Shown here: positions 2,855-32,435 of the stretch, in pieces | Numbering within the stretch: the stretch's first letter is position 1 | How the letters are laid out: each line of letters begins with the position of its first letter | Source: Candidatus Cloacimonadota bacterium | Lineage (GTDB): Bacteria; Cloacimonadota; Cloacimonadia; Cloacimonadales; JAFGVF01 | Assembly: GCA_016838885.1 (NCBI GenBank) | Contig: JAEKNW010000320.1 | Span: 1-32,435, forward strand | Reading direction: 5' to 3' | Length of the DNA stretch: 32,435 bases | Notes under the pieces: model-generated | The model's input: only the letters and a program-made list of their open reading frames with translations | The model's database searches: none | Told to the model about the DNA's origin: nothing | Made by a program: the position numbers and the translations under genes

Positions 2855-2928
2855 TAACCCAAATAATGCAGTAGATCTTTGAGAATAGCACTATCTTCTC
2901 TAAAGCTCTACTGCACCATTCGGGTTTA
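2855..2928 (+). repeat. Foldback repeat copy B (short form, 74 bp)
   Basis: It runs from an L terminus (TAACCCAAATAATGCAGTAGA) to an R terminus (TCTACTGCACCATTCGGGTTTA). The middle of the element is deleted: the outer arm sequence passes directly from CACTATCTTCT to CTAAAGCTCTACTGC. It fills the gap between two convergent genes and supplies the TAA stop of the minus-strand gene at 2926-2928. Confidence 0.9.
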
Positions 2929-3732: not shown

Positions 3733-3748
3733 TAAACCCAAATAATGA
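3733..3748 (+). repeat. Solo L terminus of the foldback repeat (C')
   Basis: TTAAACCCAAATAATG matches the L end of the repeat family and then diverges. Read on the minus strand, its GGGTTTAA runs directly into the AAGGAGG Shine-Dalgarno sequence of the phage-like gene. Confidence 0.7.
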
Positions 3749-3756
3749 AGTTGATA

Positions 3757-3793: not shown

Positions 3794-3817
3794 AGCATAT
3801 TTTTTTTATTTTACTAT

Positions 3818-3985
3818 TATCCCAAATAATGCAGTAAACCTTTGTGAATAGCACTATATTCTTCTACAAAAGTAAGCTACATAATTTTCATGAATATATA
3901 TGTTATATGCCTTCAAATTCTGTAACTTATTTTGCTAGAAGAATATGCACTCTTCCCTAAAGTTCTACTGCATCATTCGGGTTTA
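3818..3985 (+). repeat. Foldback repeat copy C (full length, 168 bp)
   Basis: This is the only full-length copy lying wholly inside the window. L terminus at 3818-3836, R terminus at about 3964-3985. Its arms are largely complementary; for example ATATTCTTCTA in the left arm pairs with TAGAAGAATAT in the right arm. The centre is an AT-rich ATATATATG tract. It overlaps the 3' end of the M42 peptidase gene. Confidence 0.92.
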
Positions 3986-5003
3986 TATATTCAACTAATA
4001 ACTTTAAGGTATTCTCTACCCCACTTTTATGAGTTCTTTCATATCCATGAGAAGCAAACACTCCCGGTCCGATTAAGGCATGTCTGATATCATAGCCGGC
4101 ATGAAGGGTAGCTTCCACATCAGAGCCATAGCGAGGATAAATATCAAGAGCATGGTTTAGTTTCATAGTTTCAGCAATCCTGATTAAATCATTTGTAAGA
4201 TCAAAATCATAAGGGCCTCCACTATCTTTCACACAGATGGAAACTTTATACTCATCAGTAGTTAAATCATCACCAACGGCGCCCATATCAACAGAAATCA
4301 TATCTGTCGTATCTTGGGGAATACCTGCAGAACCACCATGTCCAACTTCTTCATAAGTAGTAAAGAGGAGTGAGACTTTTCTGGAAAGAGTAATTTCTTT
4401 ATCTGCCACCATTTTAGCTAAGGATATTAATAATCCTGCAGAAGCTTTATCATCTAAGTGACGGGATTTAATAAATCCTGATTTAGTAACTTTAGTACGA
4501 GGGTCAAAGGAGATAAAATCTCCAACTTTGATACCTAGTTTTTCAACATCTTTTTTAGAAGAAACTTTTTCATCAAGAATAATCTCAACAGTTTCGTCAT
4601 TTCTGGTCATGGAGCCAACATCACTATAAACATGGACAGCAGGGTGAACTAAATAGGCAGTACCTTCGTATTCTTTGCCGTCTCTGGTATGAACAATAAT
4701 ATTCTCATTTTCGATATTATTTTCCGGGAAGCCACCAATTTTTGTGTGTCGAATTCTACCATTCCCTTTTATAGATCTCACCATTGCCCCAAGGGTATCT
4801 ACATGAGCAGCTAAGATAAGATGGTCTCCCTCTCCCCCAAGAGTAACAAGGACAGCTTTCTTTCTAGTATAAAGCGGAGTAAAGCCGAGATCTTTAAAAA
4901 TCTTCATTAAGTACTCTGTAGCTTTTTGAGTATAGCCTGAGGGACTAGGAATATTGCATAGGTTAACAATCTGTTTAACAGCAAAATCTGTATATTTTTT
5001 CAT
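3957..5003 (-). CDS. M42 family metallo-aminopeptidase
   Basis: The 348-residue protein belongs to the M42 glutamyl/leucyl aminopeptidase family: dinuclear metal peptidases, often large tetrahedral assemblies, that trim peptides in the cytoplasm. Visible ligands and catalytic residues are H67 and D69 (AAHVDTLG), D184 (HLDDKASAG), E218/E219 (TTYEEVGHGG), D239 (SVDMGA) and H325 (THKSGVENT). The usual family C-terminus is reached near residue 340. The last eight residues (NPNDAVEL) and the TAG stop are encoded by the R terminus of repeat copy C, so the native 3' end has been replaced. It is the last gene of a unit with the DUF6485 and ABM-like genes, 9 bases after the former. Peptidolysis fits an amino-acid-fermenting lifestyle (inference). 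Confidence 0.93.
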   Translation of the reverse strand: MKKYTDFAVKQIVNLCNIPSPSGYTQKATEYLMKIFKDLGFTPLYTRKKAVLVTLGGEGDHLILAAHVDTLGAMVRSIKGNGRIRHTKIGGFPENNIENENIIVHTRDGKEYEGTAYLVHPAVHVYSDVGSMTRNDETVEIILDEKVSSKKDVEKLGIKVGDFISFDPRTKVTKSGFIKSRHLDDKASAGLLISLAKMVADKEITLSRKVSLLFTTYEEVGHGGSAGIPQDTTDMISVDMGAVGDDLTTDEYKVSICVKDSGGPYDFDLTNDLIRIAETMKLNHALDIYPRYGSDVEATLHAGYDIRHALIGPGVFASHGYERTHKSGVENTLKLLVEYINPNDAVEL

Positions 5004-15832: not shown

Positions 15833-15919
15833 TAGCCCAAATAATGCAGTTATCCTTGGCAAAAAGCACTATATTATTTCGCATAAGTAAGTCCCATAAT
15901 TTTCCTGAAAGTATATATC
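15833..15919 (+). repeat. Foldback repeat copy D (L half only)
   Basis: TAGCCCAAATAATGCAGTTA begins the copy. It follows the left arm of the family through GCACTATATTATTTCGCATAAGTAAG and CATAATTTTCCTGAAAGTATATAT, and then stops at the centre of the element. The right arm is absent. The truncation falls directly next to the ftcD terminator. Confidence 0.85.
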
Positions 15920-21494: not shown

Positions 21495-21527
21495 TTTAAC
21501 CCAAATGATGCATTATTTGGGTTTAAA
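21495..21527. repeat. Minimal repeat copy E: two L termini head to head
   Basis: TTTAACCCAAATGATGCA joins directly to TGCATTATTTGGGTTTAAA. Both halves are L-type ends, so the site is a near-perfect palindrome with no internal arm sequence. Confidence 0.85.
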
Positions 21528-25507: not shown

Positions 25508-25861
25508 GGGCTCTCTCAAGTAGAGTGGTAAGCAATTTGGAGGGCACAAGAAGATAGAAGAATTATTTTACATTGTAAACAGTATTATAAAAAAAGTTAT
25601 CAAAATTTAAACTTGCTCTTTATCTGAAAGCAGACTAAATTCCACATTTTTTAAGTTCCTCAAATTGGCATTACAAAAGGGTTTACCTAGTGATGCCTTT
25701 GAGTATCTCGATGAATCATTGGGATTTCATCGAGATACTCAAAGGAATGACTAAGGTTTCCCTAGGAAGAGGCTAAGGACTATGATATTATTATTGTAAA
25801 ACATATTTTTAAAAAAGCTAAGGTATTTTTATTAAGTTCCCACTCTACTTGAGAGAGACCC
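25508..25861. mobile_element. Second foldback/MITE-like element with 18-bp terminal inverted repeats
   Basis: CTCTCTCAAGTAGAGTGG (25511-25528) is repeated exactly inverted at 25840-25857, with GGG beyond both ends. The 354-base interior holds a perfect 20-base stem (25696-25715 with 25726-25745, 10-base loop) that extends as weaker pairing on both sides. A short minus-strand frame through the interior ends in SLLSDKEQV before TAA but has no start codon. No transposase is present. It looks like a non-autonomous mobile element or its remnant. Confidence 0.6.
25696..25745. repeat. Perfect 20-bp stem hairpin
   Basis: CCTTTGAGTATCTCGATGAA and its exact inverse complement enclose TCATTGGGAT. No U-run follows on either strand, so this is not a plain terminator. 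It sits near the centre of the element at 25508-25861. Confidence 0.85.
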
Positions 25862-25902: not shown

Positions 25903-25923
25903 ACTGCATTATTTGGGTTTAAA
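25903..25923 (-). repeat. Solo L terminus F
   Basis: ACTGCATTATTTGGGTTTAAA is a reversed L end without arm sequence. It lies just upstream of the ruvB promoter region. Confidence 0.8.
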
Positions 25924-25996: not shown

Positions 25997-27013
25997 ATGT
26001 TAGAAAGAGTGAGTAACCCCACTGAATTTTCTGAAGATAAAGATTTTGATCGTGCTTTAAGACCTAAAACTTTAGCAGATTTTGTTGGTCAAGAACACAT
26101 CAAAGAGTTGTTAGATATTTCAATCCAAGCAACAAAAATGAGAAAGGAACCCTTAGATCACATCCTACTCTACGGTCCTCCCGGTTTAGGAAAAACAACT
26201 CTATCTAATATTATAGCTAATGAGTTGGGGGTGCAAATAAGAGTAACATCAGGACCTGTCTTAGACAAACCATCCGATTTAGCAGGGATTCTAACAAACT
26301 TACAAAAATTTGATGCTCTTTTTATTGATGAGATCCACAGACTAAATCATGTAGTCGAAGAGTATATATATCCTGCTATGGAGGATTTTCAGATGGAAAT
26401 TATCCTTGATAGTGGTCCTTCAGCAAGATCCTTACAGATTGACCTAGAGCCTTTTACTATGATAGGTGCTACTACTAGAGCCGGTTTATTGACAGCACCC
26501 TTGCGGGATAGATTTGGTTTAGTACTTAGATTAAACTACTATGACCAACCTGCTATTGAGAAGATTATTAAACGGTCAGCCTCAATTCTACAAGTTCCCA
26601 TAGAGGAAGAGGGAGTACAAGAATTAGCGCGAAGATCTAGAGGTACACCACGGGTAGCTAATAGACTGTTAAGGCGAGTAAGGGATTATGCTCAAATCAA
26701 AGGCGATGGGATAATAACCTGTGATATAGCCTTAAAAGCACTAATGATGCTAAATGTTGATGAAGAGGGTTTAGATGAAATGGATAAAAAAATTCTCTTA
26801 ACTATCATAGAAAATTATAAGGGTGGTCCAGTAGGCATCAAGACCTTGGCAGTGGCAGTTGGAGAAGACCCTGGAACTATTGAGGAAATCTTTGAGCCTT
26901 ATCTAATCCAAAAAGGATTTTTGGAAAGAACTATGCAAGGGAGAAAGGCTTCATTTAAGGCATATAAGCATTTTAAGTTGGACCCAAACCAAGACCAGAT
27001 AACCATATTTTAA
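25997..27013 (+). CDS. ruvB: Holliday junction branch migration DNA helicase RuvB
   Basis: RuvB is the AAA+ motor that drives Holliday junction branch migration with RuvA. The 338-residue length is usual. It has [17 protein letters not shown], Walker A GPPGLGKT (60-67), Walker [11 protein letters not shown] (108-117), sensor motif [20 protein letters not shown], and the C-terminal winged helix with [24 protein letters not shown] precedes the ATG. ruvA and ruvC are not adjacent. The stop codon TAA is also the first bases of a repeat R terminus. Confidence 0.97.
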
Positions 27014-27028
27014 CCCGAATGGTGCAGA
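27011..27028 (+). repeat. Solo R terminus G overlapping the ruvB stop
   Basis: TAACCCGAATGGTGCAGA matches the R end of the family and diverges afterwards. Its first three bases are the ruvB stop codon. Confidence 0.8.
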
Positions 27029-29072: not shown

Positions 29073-29166
29073 TAACCCAAATGATGCAGTAGAATTTAGG
29101 GAAAAAGCGAATAGCACTATCTTCTTTTGCACTCTTCATCAAAGTTCTACTGCACCATTCGGGTTA
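29073..29166 (+). repeat. Foldback repeat copy H (short form, 94 bp)
   Basis: It runs from an L end (TAACCCAAATGATGCAGTAGA) to an R end (TCTACTGCACCATTCGGGTTA), with the centre deleted between ATCTTCTTTTGCA and CTCTTCATC. It fills the gap between two convergent genes, within about 20 bases of both stop codons, where it could serve as a two-way terminator. Confidence 0.92.
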
Positions 29167-29825: not shown

Positions 29826-29850
29826 TAACCAGAATGGTGCAGTAGGGCTT
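29826..29850 (+). repeat. Degenerate solo R terminus I
   Basis: TTAACCAGAATGGTGCAGTAGGGCT matches the R end with one change in the CCCG block. It lies between the two TPR paralogues, six bases from the stop codon of the upstream gene. Confidence 0.75.
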
Positions 29851-32340: not shown

Positions 32341-32435
32341 TAACCCGAATGGTGCAGTAGAGCTTTAGAGAAGAGTGCAGATTCTTTTAGCAAAATAACT
32401 TACAGAATTTGAAGGCATATAATATATATATTCCT
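32341..32435 (-). repeat. Foldback repeat copy J (R-end side, cut by window edge)
   Basis: The copy starts with TAACCCGAATGGTGCAGTAGA (R terminus in reverse orientation) and runs through the arm to the central AT-rich tract at the window edge. Its last 53 bases (32383-32435) equal bases 1-53 of the window. It abuts the ribosome binding site of the membrane protein gene. Confidence 0.92.

Follow-up and report, generated by a model that had tools for sequence, protein, structure and literature searches.

A foldback repeat family in Candidatus Cloacimonadota, probably mobilised in trans by IS1380 transposases

What is the foldback repeat that recurs along a single contig of a Candidatus Cloacimonadota genome, and what moved it there? 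The window analysed here is the whole of contig C320, 32,435 nucleotides long, from a genome of 3.34 Mb in 350 contigs. A first-pass annotation of this stretch had proposed a family of asymmetric, MITE-like repeats at eleven places, and a copy or a terminus is present at 11 of the 11 (Table 1). Judging from sequence comparison, we put at roughly 90% the probability that these copies belong to a MITE family that is new and is moved in trans by IS1380 transposases.

Copies, target sites and an empty site

The full unit measures 161-162 bp from an initial CCC to a final GGG, as in the window copy at 3821-3981, and not about 168 bp as initially estimated; it has no coding capacity, and its derivatives range from 22 to 384 bp. 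The terminal inverted repeats of about 18 bp carry L- and R-specific bases, and the two ends are distinguishable as had been claimed: 78 of 94 paired copies are L/R, 3 are L/L or R/R and the remainder have one unclassified end. Far from being confined to the window, termini with at most 1 mismatch occur 310 times in forward and 311 times in reverse orientation (621 in the 3.34-Mb genome), whereas the reversed pattern gave 0 + 1 matches in the same genome at the same mismatch limit, so that the genome holds roughly 300 elements. When up to 2 mismatches were allowed, a 1.22-Mb sample yielded 313 termini, compared with 5.7 on average for permuted patterns; the 94 closely paired elements come from these 313 termini and show a length peak at 161-162 bp.

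Table 1. Copies of the repeat and associated features in the window
Feature	Position	Strand	Remarks
Copy cut by contig start	1..122	-	L terminus at right end
67-bp copy without centre	2858..2924	+	flanks ATTAA / TTTAA
Solo L terminus	3737..3751	+	
5-bp target duplication, left copy	3816..3820		ATTAT
Full 161-bp element	3821..3981	+	L terminus CCCAAATAATGCAGTA left, R terminus CCCGAATGATGCAGTA right
5-bp target duplication, right copy	3982..3986		TTTAT; 4/5 bases same as left
Peptidase gene	3957..5003	-	M42-like by sequence; C-terminus and stop (NPNDAVEL*) from element
Half copy, L arm only	15836..15918	+	
Two termini fused, 22 bp	21500..21521		flanks TTTAA / TTTAA
Solo L terminus	25903..25917	-	
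Solo R terminus	27014..27028	-	adjoins ruvB
88-bp copy without centre, with module E	29076..29163	+	TTTAGGGAAAAAGCGAATAGC at 29095-29115; flanks TTTAA / TTAAT
Solo R terminus	29829..29843	-	
Copy cut by contig end	32344..32435	-	R terminus at left end

Of 125 contig tips tested, 56 (45%) lie inside a copy, against 3 of 400 internal windows, which indicates many near-identical copies, and from these we infer fairly recent activity. Much of this genome's fragmentation traces to the family, which also makes up several percent of the neighbourhoods of the contig ends. In the window, positions 1-53 and 32383-32435 are identical to each other because assembly stopped within near-identical copies, and for the same reason the two copies at the contig ends were truncated by assembly and not by decay. 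The same terminus occurs in named genomes, which are Candidatus Cloacimonadota MAGs, so that the order searched falls within that phylum. No match to the element was found in the plasmid and phage collections searched, and a terminus scan of IMG/VR returned four single matches, about the chance expectation for such a pattern.

The flanks of the copies reveal a duplication of fixed length. In 30 of 53 full copies the two flanks agree over exactly 5 bp (1000 shuffles: mean 11.9, maximum 20), with no excess of identity at k = 2, 3, 4 or 6 and, at k = 2, 0 observed among the full copies; an excess at k = 5 only is not the TA dinucleotide duplication of the Correia/ERIC type. The duplications are TTAAA, TTTAA and their AT-rich relatives (TTWAA), and identical ones flank 59 of 88 full copies drawn from nine genomes. 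At six junctions one TTAAA/TTTAA pentamer is common to two adjoining copies. The TA/TTAA-like edges described at first are therefore replaced by a 5-bp TTWAA duplication: because flank identity spans exactly 5 bp, the AA of 'AACCC' and the AA/TT edges are target and not element. A small non-coding unit, terminal inverted repeats, a fixed-length duplication and a high copy number are together the marks of a MITE.

An empty site could be sought at the peptidase gene, whose end lies in the full element. The orthologues in two same-family genomes, both with 0 termini and with the element wholly absent, end in ...KLVNAYVTEK* and ...KLINAYITDK*. When the element at 3821-3981 is removed together with 5 bp, the joined flanks encode ...KLLVEYIIVK*, like the relatives, and removal of 4 or 6 bp does not restore this C-terminus; the element thus inserted in the last codons of the peptidase gene, whose end it now supplies. 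This locus, the one examined for the purpose, provides the empty site in relatives that the annotation had asked for and defines the target duplication, whose copies here differ in one base (ATAAA/ATAAT). Neither of the two outcomes that the annotation had named as refuting its proposal was encountered. At 27010-27016 the adjoining solo R terminus, through its TTTAA flank, supplies the stop codon of ruvB (25997-27013), and the ruvB products of relatives are two residues longer. Upstream of ruvB, positions 25688-25753 contain a 28-bp inverted repeat around a 10-base loop (93% complementary), which is separate from the family and unrelated to it.

Many copies lie directly behind stop codons, with 14 of 42 flanking 3' ends at most 15 bp away against 0 of 38 flanking 5' ends, as might be expected if they were ordinary transcription terminators. 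Sequence-specific termini far beyond chance (621 against 1), target duplications and the empty site all speak against terminators or chance palindromes, an identity that we regard as practically inconceivable and that the annotation had already set aside.

The shorter and longer copies form a series that had been read as stepwise decay. Decay is part of it, and so are the gain or exchange of modules, a recurrent single junction and ends truncated by assembly. An 80-bp centre-deleted form recurs with an identical junction, and 4 of its 7 copies still have an intact 5-bp duplication. Longer copies contain side-hairpin modules, namely A (GCCTGTGATACGTAGCTTTAGCGAAGTATTA), B (CCCCTGTGTCCCCCTCAAAGAAGGGGAT), C/D (GGGATTGCGGGCTTCCAGCCCG plus a 58-bp array) and E (TTTAGGGAAAAAGCGAATAGC), which are essentially confined to family members or their immediate vicinity. 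They occur with the centre as A, B, AB, BE and E and without it as A or E, and such varied combinations imply gain and exchange alongside decay. A 384-bp family member at L245 (2551-2934) contains tandemly repeated copies of a 58-bp hairpin module (GGGATTGCGGGCTTCCAGCCCG...CCGGTAACTCGTTGCCGG). Hairpin inserts of the form TCCCGA...TCGGGA, found in the arms of otherwise standard copies from three genera (G019 L031 1437-1607; G049 L294 1501-1673; G102 L289 1501-1670), may be mobile hairpins of their own.

A candidate transposase and homologous elements

The annotation had suggested looking for an insertion sequence with the same termini, and a PF13701 scan across 107 genomes of the order identified one in G062. 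This intact IS (locus L116, 1366-2983) is 1618 bp long and has a single 469-aa transposase matching NF033539 IS1380 (E = 4.7e-48) and PF13701 (E = 4.6e-24). The protein passes the Pfam cut-off but its NCBIfam score of 163.8 lies below the curated cut-off of 180, so it is a divergent IS1380 transposase. The terminal repeats of the IS are CCCAATTAATGCAGTAG and CCCAAATAATGCAGTAG, with a GTAAA duplication on either side, and CCCAAATAATGCAGTAG equals the L terminus of the window element (17/17), although only about 17 bp per end are common to element and IS. In G050 there are 346-bp derivatives of a similar IS whose transposase gene has lost its middle part; they are an intermediate stage between IS and MITE, and at loci L141 (213-558), L142 and L143 such IS1380 derivatives of 345-346 bp occur in many copies.

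The element's own assembly yielded no PF13701, no PF01609/DDE_Tnp_1 and no tblastn match to the G062 transposase, and with that protein as query nothing was found in G013, G019, G049, G099 or G102. Pairing distant termini in the sampled contigs to find an enclosed IS returned ordinary gene intervals only. Draft MAGs often lose multicopy IS, and for this reason the absence is weak evidence against IS1380 and may reflect either loss or an assembly gap. Of the earlier proposal of a non-autonomous element with its transposase encoded elsewhere, the core stands and gains an empty site and, by homology, a named type of transposase; the host assembly has none. In the mechanism that we propose, an IS1380-family DDE transposase would recognise the termini (CCC...GGG) in trans and insert the element at AT-rich 5-bp TTWAA targets, which would thereby be duplicated. 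The window copies would have been moved by an IS1380 transposase that this assembly now lacks or failed to capture, and the inverted-repeat body may have been retained because foldback copies are those that spread.

A tyrosine transposase of the Y1 (RAYT) type, as in REP/REPIN or TIRtron-like repeats, could in principle have done the same work, given that the genome encodes one Y1_Tnp protein (C151:58379-58726) and that GTAG occurs within the termini. The repeats on either side of the Y1 gene are, however, of another kind (CCCTGAAAGGG palindromes with 63-bp inverted arms at 94%); these termini do not flank it, and the closest terminus-like sequence has 2 mismatches and lies outside those repeats. 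The 5-bp duplication is a further difference, as Y1 elements are not known to leave a target duplication. We consider this identity highly improbable. A REP/REPIN unit is 20-40 bp long with GTAG at one end and flanks a Y1 transposase gene; the present unit is 161 bp long and starts with CCC. The single RAYT-like gene (L377 1219-2028; G000 C151:58379-58726) thus has repeats of a second palindromic family (CCCTGAAAGGG) on its flanks.

A covariance model built from the genome's own copies and those of G019 and G049, and searched across the order, as the annotation had recommended, found further full-length matches in G013, G032, G044, G099, G100 and G102, so that the family extends to nine genomes from seven genera. 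Their units are mostly 160-163 bp long, with some longer variants. The hairpins of G032 have termini (CCTAAYCTGAGCGATT) that match the genome's own IS1380 IS (L112), their L end CCTAACCTGAGCGATT being identical to one end of that resident element (16/16), and are bordered by duplications TATAA, TATTA and TAATA. After trimming of 18 bp from each end, the G032 core retains 60% identity to the others, with a score of 87 against 38.8 +/- 5.1 for palindrome-preserving shuffles. The core is thus shared and the termini follow the resident IS, either by exchange or by gradual co-adaptation.

Relation to known repeat families

For IS1380, duplications of 4-5 bp are given in PMC12116815, with 5 bp in ISEc9, and of 4 and 5 bp in PMC4133298. 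Members of the IS1380 family such as ISEcp1/ISEc9 and ISPsp9 resemble the element in their CC-type termini and 4-5 bp duplication, and an NF033539/PF13701 transposase is found in relatives with the same termini; unlike those IS, the element is gene-less, and what it has in common with the IS is limited to about 17 bp at each end. The Correia/NEMIS (CREE) repeats of Neisseria are similar in size (100-155 bp), in their hundreds of copies, in their internally deleted classes and in their foldback transcripts, but they have TA at their termini (PMC2229807), other sequences and no IS1380 link. ERIC/RU-1 and YPAL/RU-2 of enterobacteria are likewise palindromic intergenic repeats (127 and 168 bp) near gene ends, although ERIC has TA edges, YPAL has duplications of 3-26 bp (PMC2229807) and neither has a known IS1380 partner. 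In Streptococcus pneumoniae, BOX is modular, as the element is in its side hairpins, and RUP is tied to an IS via its termini, but that IS is IS630-Spn1 and the targets are TA (PMC2229807, PMC3049150). The Tn3-derived TIMEs and MITEPye1 (IS1182) are non-autonomous, carry a known transposon's terminal repeats and have foldable RNA, yet belong to other transposase families and have low copy numbers (PMC4133298, PMC11578231).

IS1380 is not mentioned in a 2024 review of prokaryotic MITEs (PMC10969869). Our literature search, mostly outside subscription journals, found no MITE family tied to IS1380, and where papers treating both IS1380 and MITEs were examined in detail, their MITEs are tied to Tn3 and IS1182. 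The kind of element is already known; the family itself, its IS1380 link in this phylum and a core of constant length and fold with termini that follow the IS appear to be new within the literature covered.

The fold and its maintenance

The arms pair nearly end to end, in agreement with the description of two complementary arms that make up almost the whole element, and the window's full copy folds much better than its dinucleotide-shuffled versions (DNA z = -5.7). In an alignment of 12 sequences, both partners have changed while still pairing in 24 of 62 pairs, a number reached in 0 of 500 shuffles, and in a wider alignment of 23 sequences the count is 33 of 50 pairs. The strand that begins with the R terminus folds better in 31 of 31 full copies of this genome and in all eight other genomes (for 3821-3981 it is the opposite strand), because most differences between the arms read as G-U on the better-folding strand and as A-C on its complement. 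A U-G/G-U tandem and a G-A mismatch are conserved near position 30-34. Columns 20/143 contain C-G, U-G and U-A pair types, a hint that double changes arose as separate steps via G-U intermediates on different branches.

Majority states per genome include 57 G-U against 14 A-C, whereas private changes in single copies are balanced (37 G-U against 36 A-C), so that the bias is a property of the lineage that spreads, and resident copies do not share it. By column the overall count is 26 against 11 (p 0.02), with a significant excess in the outer 35 columns (14 against 3) and a non-significant one in the inner helix (12 against 8). One reading of the double changes, the uniformly better-folding strand, the G-U majority and the conserved tandem and mismatch is that selection acts on the hairpin as a structured RNA or as single-stranded DNA, for instance an RNase III substrate, an mRNA 3' end or a regulator, with IS1380 mobility secondary. 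The balanced private changes, however, imply that resident copies are not so selected, and the surplus of G-U reaches significance in the outer columns alone, where L- and R-specific transposase-binding motifs could account for it, which leaves selection on RNA or single-stranded DNA no more than a possibility. Orientation relative to flanking genes is unbiased (13 vs 11, 5 vs 8, 12 vs 13), and Rfam gave no match at the gathering threshold and only sub-threshold miRNA-precursor matches, usual for long hairpins. On balance we find this reading unlikely.

Quasi-palindromes are also known to be corrected by template switching or conversion between their arms, and the palindrome could be kept in this way without selection, the double changes being mutational. 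The inner helix, complementary and free of strand bias, is what such conversion would leave; but outer-helix G-U pairs and G-A mismatches persist uncorrected, and a length of 160-163 bp is conserved across seven genera. We regard arm conversion as possible, if doubtful. Returning to a MITE mobilised by IS1380 transposases, we suggest, tentatively and with the odds against it, that the 161-bp core is long-lived, was selected for its fold in the spreading lineage rather than in resident copies, outlives individual transposases through exchange of its termini or their re-adaptation to each host's IS1380 element, and evolves by swapping side-hairpin modules. One core of conserved length in seven genera, with or without an IS1380 transposase, constitutes a natural experiment, and termini that track the resident IS open a way to study what the body of a MITE adds beyond its ends.

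Other bodies also occur between IS1380-type termini. G062 has, in the same genome as the intact IS, a different MITE of 163-165 bp with the same type of termini (L343, 339-501; L346, 337-501; L348, 401-565), which contains several short G+C-rich hairpins (e.g. TGCCAGCGTCTCGCTGGCA) and was missed by the covariance model. In G033, elements of 190-209 bp (L353, L354, L357) combine IS1380-type termini with yet another hairpin-rich body, and one of them is flanked by ATAAA duplications on both sides.
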